Source of the DNA: Candidatus Aegiribacteria sp. | GTDB taxonomy: Bacteria; Fermentibacterota; Fermentibacteria; Fermentibacterales; JCC-6 | Length of the DNA stretch: 64,000 nucleotides | Assembly (NCBI GenBank): GCA_013138965.1 | Contig: WTBT01000001.1 | Coordinates: 82,342 to 146,341, forward strand | Reading direction: 5' to 3' | Part shown: positions 25,434 through 32,605 of the stretch, in pieces | Position numbering within the stretch: position 1 is the first letter of the stretch | How the letters are laid out: each line of letters starts with the position of its first letter | Notes under the pieces: model-generated | What the model saw: the letters and a program-made list of their open reading frames with translations, nothing else | Databases searched by the model: none | Told to the model about the DNA's origin: nothing | Program-made: the position numbers and the translations under genes

Positions 25434-26746
25434 TGCTGACTCTCCTCTGCATCAAGGGGGATCATGATAAATGAAGCACGAGGTTTACCTTTTATCCAGG
25501 TTTCCAGGAAAGAGTTTATATCTTCCGGTTCAACTGCGTTAATACTGTCAGAATAGGTTGAGTAGTATTCCAGATTTCCCGCTACAACCCACCAGAATGG
25601 CAACGATTCTATGGCAACATCCCGGGCAGTCTCCTCCGCCATAATCCTGTGACGGTCAAGATCTTCCTTTGCCAGAATCAAACCCTCGGCATCGTAATAG
25701 TCAGGTGACTGCAGCTGTTCGATTTCTTCCAGCAGAAGGCTCAGCGCTTCTTCAGCCCGATCGGGATGAACCATACCGCTAAACGTGATTACAGGCGAGA
25801 AACGCTGTGTATAATAAGAACCGGAAATGCTGATGAAAGGACCGTTTGTAACAAGATCAGTATAGTACTCTCTACTCATCAGGCCCAGGTATGATCCCCA
25901 TACATCGGCTGGATAACTCGCTCCGGGGTCAGTAGATATTGATGGTCCCTCAAAGATGACTGAAATGAATCCTGCTCCTGAGGGGCTGTTCACGTATACA
26001 GTAGTGTCTCTTTCTATACTGACAAGCCGAGGCAGTATGTCGTAATTACTTAGTCCTCCGTACTCCCATGGAGAGAAGAGCTGTTCCGCAAGCATGAAAG
26101 CCTCTTCACATTCCACGTCCCCCGCAATGATGAGTGCGGAATTATCCGGAGTGTAGTACATCTCCTGGAAGTATTCCATGGCTGGAGGTGCGGCTGCCTG
26201 TATAACTTCAGGCACACCGATTGAGCTCTGCCTCCAGGGAGCGTCAGCGAAGATGACCTGCTCCTGGGCCAGCCAGAAAAGCCAGAGGGGATGGCTCGTT
26301 TTCCGCTCGTACTCGTTCATAATGACATCACGCTCACGCTCCATCTCAACCTGGTCAAAAAGCGGGGAAGTGATGGCATCGAACATGAACTGCAATCCCT
26401 CTTCAAAATTATCGCTGCCGAGAGTGATGTGGTACCAGACCCTCTCGGTAGAAGTCGCGCCATTGTTAATGATCCCGAGTTCTCCCATTCGCTGTCTATA
26501 TGCGGTCTGATCGGGGAGAGCGGAGTTCCCCTTGAAAAACATATGCTCGTAGAAGTGAGCAAGTCCGTTTGTCTCGGGAGTCTCGCATGTTGCTCCCGTC
26601 TTCACGGCAATACAGATTGTTACCACAGGAGATGTATCATCAGGGCTGACAATAACAGTTAAACCGTTTTCCAGCTCCATCGTTTCAAATTCGGCTGCTG
26701 AAACAGCTAAAACAAGCGGGAAAAACAGGATAATGAAGGCTTTCAT
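25430..26746 (-). CDS. M16 family zinc metallopeptidase (active subunit)
   Basis: A 438-residue secreted M16B peptidase: signal peptide MKAFIILFFPLVLAVSA, METENGLTV-like strand ETMELENGLTVIVSPDDTSP, and the inverted zinc motif HFYEH in GLAHFYEHMFFKG, with the distal Glu expected in the downstream helix (ERERDVIMNEYERKTSH). It degrades peptides in the periplasm or at the surface. It is the first gene of the unit M16 active - M16 inactive - lipoprotein, transcribed divergently from the amidohydrolase gene. Confidence 0.93.
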   Translation of the reverse strand: MKAFIILFFPLVLAVSAAEFETMELENGLTVIVSPDDTSPVVTICIAVKTGATCETPETNGLAHFYEHMFFKGNSALPDQTAYRQRMGELGIINNGATSTERVWYHITLGSDNFEEGLQFMFDAITSPLFDQVEMERERDVIMNEYERKTSHPLWLFWLAQEQVIFADAPWRQSSIGVPEVIQAAAPPAMEYFQEMYYTPDNSALIIAGDVECEEAFMLAEQLFSPWEYGGLSNYDILPRLVSIERDTTVYVNSPSGAGFISVIFEGPSISTDPGASYPADVWGSYLGLMSREYYTDLVTNGPFISISGSYYTQRFSPVITFSGMVHPDRAEEALSLLLEEIEQLQSPDYYDAEGLILAKEDLDRHRIMAEETARDVAIESLPFWWVVAGNLEYYSTYSDSINAVEPEDINSFLETWIKGKPRASFIMIPLDAEESQQ

Positions 26747-28185: not shown

Positions 28186-30590
28186 CAACTGAGCCGGACA
28201 TCAAACTGATTGAAGTCGTCCTCAACAGGCCGCTCTGGCAGTCCTTCACATACTCAATACCGCCCGGGCTGGCTGGTGGTGACCTTGTTGGATGCAGAGT
28301 AGCGGTGCCTTTCGGAACAAGCCGGCTTATCGGCTATGTGTGGGGATTCACTACCACCGACCAGGAGAACAGACCGAAAGTAAAAGATGTTCTGGACAGA
28401 CTTGATGCCAATCCTCTTCTTCCCCGGTCAATCCTGAAGCTTGTGAGGTGGGCGGCTGATTATTACCAGGCGCCTCCCGGAATGATGATGGCGGCTGCTC
28501 ATCCTCCCGGAATCTCAGGCAAAGCGGAAAGGGTGGTAACCCTGACCGGTAAAATTGATCCTGAACATCCATTCAGCACCCTTCTTCCAGCCCGCCGGAA
28601 TGTTTCCGTGAAACTTCTCAGAGACAGTATGAACAGTGATTATCCCCTTGAAAAGGAATTGTCCGTACTTGAGAAAAGGGGAGTTCTCAGGACAATATGG
28701 AAATCCGTTTCAGGCCCTGAACCGGTCATGGAAAGAATGGTTGAAGCCGCTATCGATGATTCAGTGCTTATCAGGAAAGCTGATGTTCTGAAACGTACGG
28801 CTCCCCGTCAGGCTGAGATCCTATTGTACCTGGCGACCTGCGAAGGATCGGTTACCCGCAGTCAGTTATTAAAAACTACAGGCGCTACAGCATCTTCTAT
28901 TGAAGGCCTCAGAAAAAAAGGACTTGTGAAGGAATCCTATCGCAGAAGGTACAGGGAATCTCTGATTAGATCGGATATTGAGAAGGAAAAGGATGTTCCT
29001 GTGCTCTCCGAAGCTCAGGAGCACGCCCTGAAAGCAATTATTGAAAGCCTCGATCGTAACAGGGTCTTCCTCATGCATGGTGTTACAGGAAGCGGTAAGA
29101 CAGAAGTTTATCTCAAGGCGATATCCGAAGTTGTTTCAAGGGGTCGAACAGCCCTCGTTCTTGTTCCCGAAATTTCCCTTACACCCCTGACAGTTTCCCG
29201 TTTCAACAGAAGGTTTCCGGGGCTGGTAACCGTTCTCCACAGCGGAATGACCGGCGGCGAACGGCTTGACAGCTGGAATCTGGCAAAACTCGGAGAACGA
29301 AGAATTGTAATAGGTCCCAGAAGCGCTGTCTTCGCACCGCTTCCTGATCTGGGAATTATCGTTGTGGATGAAGAACATGACAGCAGCTACAAGCAGAATG
29401 AACTGCCGAAATACAATTCAAGAGACGTAGCGGTCGTCAGAGGAACGACGGAAGGCTTTCCGGTTATTCTGGGATCCGCGAGCCCCTCCATGGAATCGTA
29501 CGGAAACTCGGTGAACAGGAGATACCACCTTCTTGAGCTTGACAGCAGGATAGACGGTATTCCGATGCCTTCAACCGTCCTGGTTGATGAGAGAAGCATG
29601 CGTCAGCATCTGCTTTCGGATGAACTGCTCAAAGGCATCGGTCGCAGAACCGCGAGGGGGGAACAGAGCATCATCCTTATTAACCGCAGGGGCTTCTCTC
29701 CTACTCAGATGTGCAGAAACTGCGGACACCGGGAGGAATGCCCAAACTGTGGAGTAACACTGACTTACCATAGAAAGGGACAGGTTTTAAGGTGCCATTA
29801 CTGTAATCACTGGAAAGCCGCAATGATAAGATGCCCTGAATGCGGGTTCGATGAGTTCGCTCATATGGGACCCGGCATACAGAAAGTCGAGGAGCACCTG
29901 AAAAAGCTGCTGCCTGAAACCAGGGTGATCAGGATGGATGCCGACACTACCAGGGGCAAGGATGCACACTGGGATTTACTGAACGCATTCGCGCAAGGCA
30001 GGGGTGATGTGCTTCTGGGAACGCAGATGGTTGCCAAGGGGCATGATTTTCCCGGTGTTACGTTTGTTGGAGTGATTTCTGCTGATATGGGTCTGGCGTT
30101 TCCGGATTTCAGGGCGGCCGAAAGGACTTTTCAGCTGATTCTCCAGGTTGCCGGCAGGGCGGGCAGGGGAAAGATTCCAGGGGAAGTAATCATTCAGACG
30201 CATGACCCAGACAACCCTGTGATAAAAGCAGCCGCAAATCATGACTACGCTGATTTCTGGAAGAGGGAAAGCAGAATACGAGAAATGTTCGGATATCCTC
30301 CGTACGGCTATCTTGTGAGGTTCGTCTGGAGCGGGCTTGATAAAAGCAGGGTTCAGAAAGCGGCAAATGCCTCTGTAAGAAATATCGGCCAGCGCGATAC
30401 GTTCATATCAGACGTGCTTGAAGCTGCATTCCCGCGGATTAACAGAAGGTGGAGATGGAGCGCTATCGCGAAATCATCTTCAAGAAAAACACTTGCCTGT
30501 ATTTCGCGCGAAGTGAGAAAGCAGTTCGACACCATCCCCCATAAGGGTGTTCGCCTTGAGATCGACATAGACCCTTACCACCTCCTTTAG
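28182..30590 (+). CDS. priA: Primosomal protein N' (replication restart helicase PriA)
   Basis: An 802-residue PriA. The N-terminal 3'-DNA-binding domain includes LNRPLWQSFTYSIPPGLAGG; helicase motifs are GVTGSGKTEVYL, VVDEEHDSSYKQ and LGSASPS; the zinc region CRNCGHREECPNCGVTL then CHYCNH and CPECG carries the eight Cys; GTQMVAKGHDFPGVTFVGV and QVAGRAGR complete motifs V and VI. It restarts stalled forks. GTG start overlaps the amidohydrolase stop (GTGA). Length is at the upper end for the family. Confidence 0.97.
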   Translation: MTTEPDIKLIEVVLNRPLWQSFTYSIPPGLAGGDLVGCRVAVPFGTSRLIGYVWGFTTTDQENRPKVKDVLDRLDANPLLPRSILKLVRWAADYYQAPPGMMMAAAHPPGISGKAERVVTLTGKIDPEHPFSTLLPARRNVSVKLLRDSMNSDYPLEKELSVLEKRGVLRTIWKSVSGPEPVMERMVEAAIDDSVLIRKADVLKRTAPRQAEILLYLATCEGSVTRSQLLKTTGATASSIEGLRKKGLVKESYRRRYRESLIRSDIEKEKDVPVLSEAQEHALKAIIESLDRNRVFLMHGVTGSGKTEVYLKAISEVVSRGRTALVLVPEISLTPLTVSRFNRRFPGLVTVLHSGMTGGERLDSWNLAKLGERRIVIGPRSAVFAPLPDLGIIVVDEEHDSSYKQNELPKYNSRDVAVVRGTTEGFPVILGSASPSMESYGNSVNRRYHLLELDSRIDGIPMPSTVLVDERSMRQHLLSDELLKGIGRRTARGEQSIILINRRGFSPTQMCRNCGHREECPNCGVTLTYHRKGQVLRCHYCNHWKAAMIRCPECGFDEFAHMGPGIQKVEEHLKKLLPETRVIRMDADTTRGKDAHWDLLNAFAQGRGDVLLGTQMVAKGHDFPGVTFVGVISADMGLAFPDFRAAERTFQLILQVAGRAGRGKIPGEVIIQTHDPDNPVIKAAANHDYADFWKRESRIREMFGYPPYGYLVRFVWSGLDKSRVQKAANASVRNIGQRDTFISDVLEAAFPRINRRWRWSAIAKSSSRKTLACISREVRKQFDTIPHKGVRLEIDIDPYHLL

Positions 30591-30754
30591 CCCGGATTCC
30601 CATTCTCTGTCAGGCACTAAAGACAGCCTTGCAACAAATTAGTCTGGATATTATTTTTATTGCAGGTTCAGCAAAACTATCAGTGGTGTTAGCTTCTGAC
30701 TACCGCTGTGTATTGTGCATTACATCTTAACTACGCATGAAACAAAGGATATGT

Positions 30755-30952
30755 ATGAATGAAAGAATAGATAGAAAAGCCATCAGTATTGGAAGCTTTA
30801 AAGAGTTGGAAAAACAGAATATACAGTTTTGGGCAATAGCTGGCGCAGCAGAAAAGTTTAAAACAATCACATATCTAAGGGAATGCTTTTATGGGCATGA
30901 AGCAACTACCGGAAGACTTCAAAGAGTTTATAGAGTTTTTAAACGATCATAA
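30755..30952 (+). CDS. Small protein upstream of and overlapping a nucleotidyltransferase
   Basis: 65 residues from MNERIDRKAISIGSFKEL to RVFKRS. AAAGGA five bases ahead of ATG 30755 favours this start over 30737. The C-terminal part (LRECFYGHEATTGRLQRVYR) overlaps the next gene by 62 bases in another frame. The AT-rich composition of this pair differs from that of priA before it. It has the look of a two-gene toxin-antitoxin unit, the first product being the smaller partner, but no known family is identified. Confidence 0.65.
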   Translation: MNERIDRKAISIGSFKELEKQNIQFWAIAGAAEKFKTITYLRECFYGHEATTGRLQRVYRVFKRS

Positions 30953-31343
30953 GGTTCATTACCTGCTTTTGGGCGGGTGGGCTGTTGGACTCTATGGAAA
31001 TCCAAGAGCAACAAAAGATATTGATTTCCTGATAGCAACAGATGACGAGAATATCAGAAGATTGCAGCAGGCACTCCTTGCGTTCGGGGCACCAACTGTG
31101 GAAAACAAAGTTTTCCAGAAAAAAGGCAATGTGTTCCGAATGGGTAGAACTCCAATACAGATTGACATAATTAATGAAGCAGATGGAATCAGTTTCAACG
31201 AATGCTATGAGCACAGAAATATCATAAGAATTGATGATATCGATATTGCCACTATATCCAAAGATGATCTAATAAAAAATAAAAAAGCTTCCGGGCGCCA
31301 CAGAGATTTAGCAGATATTGAATCCATCGAAAACCAGGAGTAG
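30891..31343 (+). CDS. Nucleotidyltransferase (AbiEii/DUF6036-like, MNT fold)
   Basis: A 150-residue Pol-beta-fold nucleotidyltransferase: LLLGGWAVGLYGNPRATKDIDFLI has the GG/S and R-x-T-x-D-x-D pattern, and TPIQIDIINEADG supplies the third acidic residue; a KKASGRHRDLADI tail is typical of the family. Such proteins are MNT toxins/antitoxins (AbiEii, MenA, HEPN-MNT). Two starts, 30891 and 30897, are possible. The gene's stop is only 4 bases from the left end of the RAYT element. Confidence 0.82.
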   Translation: MGMKQLPEDFKEFIEFLNDHKVHYLLLGGWAVGLYGNPRATKDIDFLIATDDENIRRLQQALLAFGAPTVENKVFQKKGNVFRMGRTPIQIDIINEADGISFNECYEHRNIIRIDDIDIATISKDDLIKNKKASGRHRDLADIESIENQE

Positions 31344-31347
31344 CCTT

Positions 31348-32605
31348 TAAGGGACGTACCACATTTCTTCAACTTATGGGCATATTTATATCTATATTAA
31401 TACGTATTATGTATTTAAAATTGTCTAGGTATCTGAATGATCATGGAGAATATCATGTATTTCGGAATCGAAATCACATTCTGGGAGGAATCTATCTGCA
31501 GCAGCATGAACACCCTGAGAGCTGAGGTTCAAGATTCTACCGGAATCTACAAGACTCAAACCCAATATATTGACGAGAGTGTAGCTAACAAATTCTCTTG
31601 CTCTGGATATTGATCTGGTACGACCTTTTGAAGTAAGTGCCCTTTTATTGATCCCCCATTTTTTTTCTATGTATTTCAAGATCTTTGCTACTGATTCATG
31701 CTCATATTCGCGATCCCTTAGATGATCTTTTTTTCTGCGATTGACCTCATTGTAAATCTTCCGGGCAAAATCATAGTTCCCAAGTATTTGATACTGCGAG
31801 TATCCCCTCATATCTTCTTCTGATTCTTCCAGACTGAGTAATCCATTAGCCCCAAGGAGAAAAGATCCTTCATCAAATCTTCCGTCCTGATAGATAGTTT
31901 CCCCGGGTTCTACGATGAACTGTGCATATTGCTTTATTTTGTTCGTTTTATTTCCAGAAAAGGTATTCAGTACCTGATCAGTTTCCTGCCATGGATAATA
32001 ACCAGGATAGATTAATCCTGGATGACCTGTCCAGGGGTACTTTTTAAGCATCTCATGATCACTTACCAATTCTGCTTTCAATGGATTTAAATGAATGTAG
32101 CGTACTAGCTTGAGGAGATAAATATCAGCCTGAACAAGAATCGATTTGTAACGATTCTGAAATAGGTGTCCGACTCGATCGTACTTCTTATTGAAATAGT
32201 TTGCATGGCCTGTAAGAAGTTTCTGCATGAATTTCGAAAGGGGCATCTTCCGGGTTCGGATAAGCAAGTGTATATGATTGGGCATCAGTGCCCACGCATA
32301 TATTGATACTCCTGTTTCAGCAGCGCACTTCTCAATCCGAGACACGAACTGTGCTTTGTCTCTATCATCCTTGAATATGGCTCTTTTCTCGATGCCTCGC
32401 GCCATCACATGGTGCACTGCGCTTTTCCAGTCCAACCTATTTGATCTAGCCATAATACTGATAGTGTACGCACATGCACGATGTGTTTCAAGTGCGCAAA
32501 ATTGTTATTGCAATAATTCAATATAAATACACTATTTTAGTAGATATATTTAAATACAGGGTGATATCCAGTCAAATTAGTTGAGGAAATGTGGTGCGTC
32601 CCCTA
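31348..32605. mobile_element. RAYT (Y1 transposase) element with inverted terminal repeats
   Basis: A 1.26-kb element. Left end AAGGGACGTACCACATTTCTT (31349 on) and right end, read on the minus strand, AGGGGACGCACCACATTTCC (from 32604) are inverted copies over about 26 bases. The right-end sequence extends to CTCAACTAATTTGAC. It contains one Y1 transposase gene (minus strand) and AT-rich flanks. A solo copy of the right-end sequence lies at 44059-44091. The inside differs in composition from neighbouring core genes. Confidence 0.85.
31425..32453 (-). CDS. REP-associated tyrosine transposase (Y1_Tnp)
   Basis: A 342-residue HUH single-strand transposase. N-terminal HHVMARGIEKRAIFKDDRD, HUH motif in YAWALMPNHIHLLIRT, and the catalytic Tyr in the YDRVGHLFQNRYKS region are present; LVRYIHLNPLKAELV is the family's usual next motif. 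The C-terminal part (ESVAKILKYIEKKWGINKRA to the end) looks like a DnaA-domain-IV-type helix-turn-helix. The enzyme processes hairpin repeats as single-stranded DNA. Complete, so possibly active. Confidence 0.93.
   Translation of the reverse strand: MARSNRLDWKSAVHHVMARGIEKRAIFKDDRDKAQFVSRIEKCAAETGVSIYAWALMPNHIHLLIRTRKMPLSKFMQKLLTGHANYFNKKYDRVGHLFQNRYKSILVQADIYLLKLVRYIHLNPLKAELVSDHEMLKKYPWTGHPGLIYPGYYPWQETDQVLNTFSGNKTNKIKQYAQFIVEPGETIYQDGRFDEGSFLLGANGLLSLEESEEDMRGYSQYQILGNYDFARKIYNEVNRRKKDHLRDREYEHESVAKILKYIEKKWGINKRALTSKGRTRSISRAREFVSYTLVNILGLSLVDSGRILNLSSQGVHAAADRFLPECDFDSEIHDILHDHSDT

Follow-up and report, generated by a model that had tools for sequence, protein, structure and literature searches.

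A putative mobile toxin–antitoxin pair with a 62-nt dual-coding overlap and a MenT1-like nucleotidyltransferase in Candidatus Aegiribacteria

Results

Layout of the locus

The window, meaning the whole 64,000-nt stretch of Candidatus Aegiribacteria sp. DNA that was analyzed, contains two small overlapping forward-strand genes, here termed S and N, located between priA and a transposase gene. S occupies 30755–30952 (65 aa; ATG at 30755, stop codon at 30950–30952), and N occupies 30891–31343 (150 aa; ATG at 30891, TAG stop codon at 31341–31343). They have 62 nt in common (30891–30952), with N read in the +1 frame relative to S; these coordinates and the overlap had been given exactly, to the base, in the first-pass annotation. 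A second possible start of S lies at 30737; 30755 is nonetheless preferred on the basis of the Shine-Dalgarno-like AAAGGA and of how the relatives align. The GC content is 0.37–0.41 at the pair and about 0.50 in its surroundings. The features are as follows.

30584..30589, no strand: left-hand CCTTTA of the 6-bp direct repeat that brackets the insert (target-site duplication or microhomology)
30590..31343, forward: inserted segment of leader, S, and N, ending at the N stop codon; absent in 10 congeners; GC 0.37–0.41
30625..30660, forward: leader motif CCTTGCAACAAA...TGGATATTATTTTTATTG, probable promoter; present in most intact Fermentibacterota copies despite differing flanks
30743..30748, forward: Shine-Dalgarno-like AAAGGA region for S, read from the sequence; most relatives retain an AAAGG-type sequence ahead of S
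30755..30952, forward: S, predicted antitoxin; helical protein of 65 aa belonging to an undescribed family
30877..30882, forward: AAGGGA within S codons L41-R42-E43, Shine-Dalgarno-like for N and 8 nt ahead of its start codon; relatives have a purine-rich counterpart
30891..30952, forward: 62-nt dual-coding overlap; the N start codon lies within S codons Y46-G47
30891..31343, forward: N, 150-aa DUF6036 nucleotidyltransferase, MenT1-like, predicted toxin
31344..31349, no strand: right-hand CCTTTA of the same 6-bp repeat

The leader motif probably serves as a promoter and is not called by a generic sigma-70 scan; generic promoter and terminator scans of the region, as well as an Rfam search, returned no matches. 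Within the overlap, the RLQR motif of S (30914–30925) and the DFKE motif of N (30915–30926) have 11 of 12 nucleotides in common.

Insertion next to priA

The pair in the window is a recent insertion between priA and a pre-existing transposase. In 10 congeners, priA is followed by roughly 60–120 nt and then by the same Y1/REP-type transposase, with S-N absent, and relative to them the window carries 760 extra bp in this interval. At the priA end, CTCCTTTAAGGGACG occurs just once in the congeners; the window reads CTCCTTTAG...GTAGCCTTTAAGGGACG. Because the 10 congeners without S-N have the transposase in the same slot, the transposase is older than the insertion, and carriage of the pair by this neighbor is rejected; the evidence for mobility is therefore the empty site. 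Two arguments of the first-pass annotation for a toxin–antitoxin (TA) pair are weaker than they seemed: the adjoining mobile element was already there and is not a visible carrier, and the AT-richness marks only the insert. In several relatives, the sequence upstream of S includes an intergenic stretch resembling the left end of the insert, so the insert does not necessarily correspond end to end to a defined mobile unit.

The transposase itself is a REP-associated tyrosine (Y1) transposase (31425–32453, reverse strand; ends at about 31350 and 32610) whose C-terminus bears a DnaA-like helix-turn-helix; the inverted repeats GGGACGTACCACATTTCTTCAA / TTGAGGAAATGTGGTGCGTCCC flank it. Most congeners have it in this slot after priA, and in one (L186) its orientation is reversed.

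Protein families and predicted structures

N passes the Pfam cutoff for DUF6036 (PF19502; 38.8 vs 23.6 bits), and 66 of its 70 aligned relatives match this family. N falls outside an assignment to DUF1814, as AbiEii (PF08843) remains narrowly below its cutoff (21.4 vs 22.5 bits) and DUF6036 scores higher; 25 of the 70 relatives match AbiEii at E ≤ 0.01, and the AbiEii models of both Pfam and PADLOC match N weakly. A PDB sequence search with a profile of the 70 relatives retrieved MenT1 (8an4) at E = 2e-7, with the next match at 0.013. The AlphaFold2 model of N (pLDDT 89.8, pTM 0.85) likewise gave MenT1, in the MenAT1 complex, as its best Foldseek match (E = 1.9e-6, TM 0.71), followed further down the list by the antibiotic nucleotidyltransferases LnuA and ANT(2'').

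The nucleotidyltransferase motifs G28-G29 and D43-x-D45 are intact, as the first-pass annotation had read them. R39, T41, K131, D139, and D142 are invariant in 70/70 aligned N sequences, while D43 is kept in 68 and D45 in 69. R39, T41, D43, D45, K131, D139, and D142 align with R37, T39, D41, D43, K137, D149, and D152 of MenT1. Toxicity of MenT1 requires D41, K137, and D152 (PMC10435456), and its autophosphorylation takes place on T39 (PMC11375011). By alignment and structural model, N is a nucleotidyltransferase with the MenT1 fold and a MenT1-type active site.

S, by comparison, resembles nothing in the collections searched. Its family has no match at a useful E-value in Pfam or NCBIfam, including no HEPN domain, and S retrieved nothing from the PDB by sequence or by Foldseek fold search, in agreement with the first-pass statement that the protein was of no nameable family. 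A TetR_C_9 match of the window S (0.012) was discarded, as it lies below the cutoff and is matched by none of 75 other relatives. The model of S (pLDDT 87.5) has two main helices, a third short helix, and a tail; no DNA-binding domain was found in it. Searches of viral contigs and phage records with S found nothing convincing; the broad S alignment was too variable for scanning.

Pairing within the phylum and across bacteria

When S alone was the query, 13 of 42 genomes from the phylum proved to carry it, and at each good match a whole or partial N overlaps it. The same 62-nt overlap recurs in same-phylum relatives, and many of the copies are found at different loci, where the flanking sequence is unrelated. 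A 92%-identical N is present in Candidatus Fermentibacteraceae (L029). The window genome holds a second, divergent pair (L017, G000:C91:60148-60588), whose N is 39% identical to the window N and whose S, ending in ESRLQRNVISITRQQS, can be recognized chiefly from its length, its position, and the RLQR motif at its C-terminus.

Beyond the phylum, a scan for N covered about 85,000 species genomes. An S-like gene runs into N at all 80 of the nearest N loci, the best 80 of >500 relatives, a set biased towards overlapping pairs because the scan patterns contain an N-terminal segment of N that is encoded within the overlap. The S-type open reading frame ending inside N was located by a scripted search for nearly all 80; three loci were read by eye, namely L079, which has a longer S, L080, whose S is longer than the script took, and L084, where the S C-terminus is visible at a contig edge. 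The overlap measures 62 nt in 39 of the 80 loci and 68 nt in 12, the rest lying between 44 and 65 nt save for one outlier, and its phase is identical in all of them.

Starting from S yielded the same picture. The S-first searches comprised three sets: the phylum, 20 genomes underlying the loci, and 146 genomes sampled from another phylum; the 20 were picked for holding a known pair and are a biased sample, whereas the other two sets are unbiased. All 60 S genes recovered from S-alone searches overlap N or a remnant of N. The first-pass annotation had proposed looking for S next to nucleotidyltransferases, and the pairing, whose lack of conservation it had named as part of a refutation, is decisively conserved (80/80 N-first, 60/60 S-first), as is generally found for the two adjacent small genes of TA systems. 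The distribution is patchy, as is typical of mobile TA modules, with 16 of 146 genomes positive in the phylum-wide draw around Pseudanabaena biceps besides the 13 of 42 in the home phylum. Sequences on the N tree with an NCBI phylum label fall into 24 groups. Along the tree the labels switch 34 times against a minimum of 23, which suggests transfer between phyla, with paralogy as the other possibility.

Several individual loci merit description. Candidatus Anammoxibacter (L053 / G054) has 11 S copies, some with a truncated N, a local expansion. Two N paralogues in the home phylum (L157, L168) have another small upstream partner that does not overlap them (MDR(D/N)LKV...QERRWG.DWATKPIEKVVSYEE), which suggests partner exchange. 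Between L001 and L006, the N proteins are 96% identical, the S proteins are only 72% identical, and the upstream sequence differs, so that recombination inside the module is possible. Among cyanobacterial plasmids, the copies in Geminocystis (L020) and Annamia (L021) lie beside type I restriction subunit genes, and the Geminocystis copy also has a VapC-type toxin next to it. On pSYSA of the model organism Synechocystis PCC 6803 (L027, about 26000–26330), S is intact and unannotated and N is cut to about 64 aa; this remnant is not among the pSYSA rows examined from the Synechocystis survey (PMC4963859). Two further candidates were set aside: a Pseudanabaena plasmid homologue of S (27%), which has no annotated overlapping partner and a nucleotidyltransferase pair nearby on the other strand, was used as a remote sequence only, and L015 (29%, E 0.003) was judged a chance match and excluded from the counts.

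Selection on both frames and one-sided decay

Both proteins are under purifying selection, and both reading frames are under selection inside the overlap. The dN/dS of S outside the overlap is mostly about 0.1–0.5, well below 1 in most pairs compared, and that of N is about 0.05–0.2. Across 23 cassettes with the common 62-nt overlap, where N third codon positions are S first positions, divergence at N third positions is 0.255 inside the overlap, compared with 0.618 over the remainder of the gene (Mann-Whitney P = 1.3e-5). The conservation of RLQR in S and DFKE in N is partly shared because they are nearly the same nucleotides; S is nevertheless conserved in its own right, since W26 and R42, each at least 90% conserved, fall outside the overlap.

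The two genes decay unequally. Among 58 S-first loci away from contig edges, both genes are intact in 40, S is intact and N broken in 15, and both are broken in three; none of the 58 has a broken S with an intact N. The 80 N-first loci likewise contain no broken S beside an intact N, save one cut by a contig edge. Loss of the toxin with retention of the antitoxin is the pattern of TA modules, and 15 loci against 0 follow it, small numbers that come from many draft assemblies and from an S profile built partly from the same loci. If breaks fell in proportion to length (135 nt unique to S, 453 nt for N), the chance of 0 in 15 would be about 0.02 by hand calculation. The one-sided decay, being only modestly beyond this length-proportional expectation, lends modest support to N as the toxin and S as the antitoxin.

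Discussion

Taken together, the sequence comparisons, the structural models, and the analogy with MenAT1 make it probable that S-N is a mobile two-gene TA module in which N acts as a MenT1-like toxin and S as its antitoxin. The core of the first-pass idea, a TA-like pair of a small protein and a nucleotidyltransferase, has held up through the universal pairing, the likeness of N to MenT1, the one-sided decay, and the patchy insertional distribution; the reasoning from the mobile neighbor and the AT content is weaker. Several points count against this explanation: S has no sequence or fold similarity to MenA1, DUF6036 is an uncharacterized family whose fold also holds the small-molecule enzymes LnuA and ANT(2''), and the one-sided decay comes from 15 loci, many of them in draft assemblies.

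In the proposed mechanism, S would be translated first from an mRNA common to both genes. S would bind N and hold it in an inactive state, probably by obstructing the active site, and might provoke autophosphorylation of N at T41, as MenA1 does to MenT1. Once free, N would be an active nucleotidyltransferase of the MenT/AbiEii superfamily, most probably adding nucleotides to the tRNA 3' end so that translation stops. Through the 62-nt out-of-frame overlap, N would be translated in a manner coupled to S, and the two genes would be tied together.

A broader reading, to which we give an even chance, is that S-N is an undescribed, bacteria-wide TA family present in at least 24 phyla. An unrelated minimal antitoxin would here have come convergently to control a MenT-like tRNA nucleotidyltransferase, with the N start, its Shine-Dalgarno-like sequence, and the first 14–22 codons of N located inside the antitoxin gene. 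Because RLQR and DFKE are the same nucleotides in two frames, the S frame would under this reading have to be translated for N to be made and could not be lost without harming N.

Other explanations were weighed against the TA module. One is a special form of it, a phage-defense (abortive infection) version in which infection frees N from S. The weak AbiEii matches of N in Pfam and PADLOC and the cyanobacterial plasmid copies beside restriction genes speak for such a role; however, the window copy lies among housekeeping neighbors rather than in a defense island, and the viral collection held only one distant relative of N and none of S, leaving this version a tentative possibility. Less probable, and in our view unlikely, is a role outside TA biology, with N as a small-molecule or metabolic nucleotidyltransferase (an antibiotic-modifying enzyme akin to LnuA or ANT(2''), for instance) and S as its obligatory subunit or regulator. 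The fold is common to LnuA and ANT(2''), and the Aminoglyc_resit profile matches 51 of the 70 N members at E ≤ 0.01, but MenT1 comes first by both sequence and fold, the frequent loss of N with S kept would be unexpected if S only served N, and the insertional distribution and plasmid neighbors fit TA or defense better. The reverse polarity, in which S is the toxin and N an antitoxin adding AMP to it as MntA does to HepT, draws on the adjacency of a small protein gene and a nucleotidyltransferase gene and on HEPN-MNT being an abundant pair (PMC7641770 and PMC2701414), yet it is very improbable because 15 loci keep S with N broken and none shows the reverse, which is unexpected for a toxin without its antitoxin, and also in view of the absence of a Pfam or NCBIfam HEPN match in this 65-aa helical protein, the rank of MenT1 as best structural match, and the absence of MntA among the best 50 Foldseek matches listed.

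For the TA module with N as toxin, S most likely represents an undescribed antitoxin family with an unusually long and conserved overlap; the literature covered was that under open license, and an earlier description elsewhere is possible. If the interpretation is correct, a widespread antitoxin family would be added to those described, and DUF6036, a Pfam family of unknown function, would become a set of predicted toxins. Several unrelated small helical proteins would then hold MenT-type enzymes in check, which bears on the generality of antitoxin-induced autophosphorylation. The deeply conserved dual-coding overlap is also a rare example from nature in which to study the locking together of an antitoxin with its toxin.

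Comparison with known systems

Like HEPN-MNT (MntA-HepT), S-N is a small two-gene module with a protein of the nucleotidyltransferase fold. However, S is not a HEPN protein, with short helices only, N carries the MenT motifs K131...D139..D142, and the decay polarity is opposite to that expected for an MNT antitoxin; the part of the 2009 TA survey drawn on here names MNT only with HEPN (PMC2701414). DUF6036 (PF19502, "nucleotidyltransferase of unknown function") takes in N and nearly all of its relatives, but it is a sequence family without a described function or partner, and we found no mention of it in the open-license literature searched.

AbiE and MenAT3, which pair a DUF1814 toxin with a COG5340 antitoxin, are closer in that a nucleotidyltransferase of the same superfamily has an upstream partner and the AbiEii models match N weakly. 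The partner in these systems is a much larger winged-helix antitoxin, such as the 22.5-kDa MenA3 (PMC11375011), whereas S has 65 aa and no DNA-binding domain was found in it.

The nearest counterpart is MenAT1 of Mycobacterium tuberculosis (Rv0078B-Rv0078A), in which MenA1, a 68-aa helical antitoxin, is encoded upstream of MenT1 (PMC10435456). Both systems place a small helical antitoxin, in S-N a predicted one, directly upstream of a nucleotidyltransferase toxin, as the overlapping gene at every N-first locus illustrates, and MenT1 and N are alike in fold and active-site residues. In contrast, S is not detectably related to MenA1 or to the COG5340 family of MenA3 and AbiEi, and N is shorter than MenT1, belongs to Pfam DUF6036, and falls below the AbiEii cutoff. 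Under the preferred TA explanation, S-N would therefore work like MenAT1 by analogy rather than count as a demonstrated member of that system, because the two differ in the S family and in the Pfam family to which N belongs; its own hallmark is the 44–68 nt over which the predicted antitoxin and toxin genes overlap.
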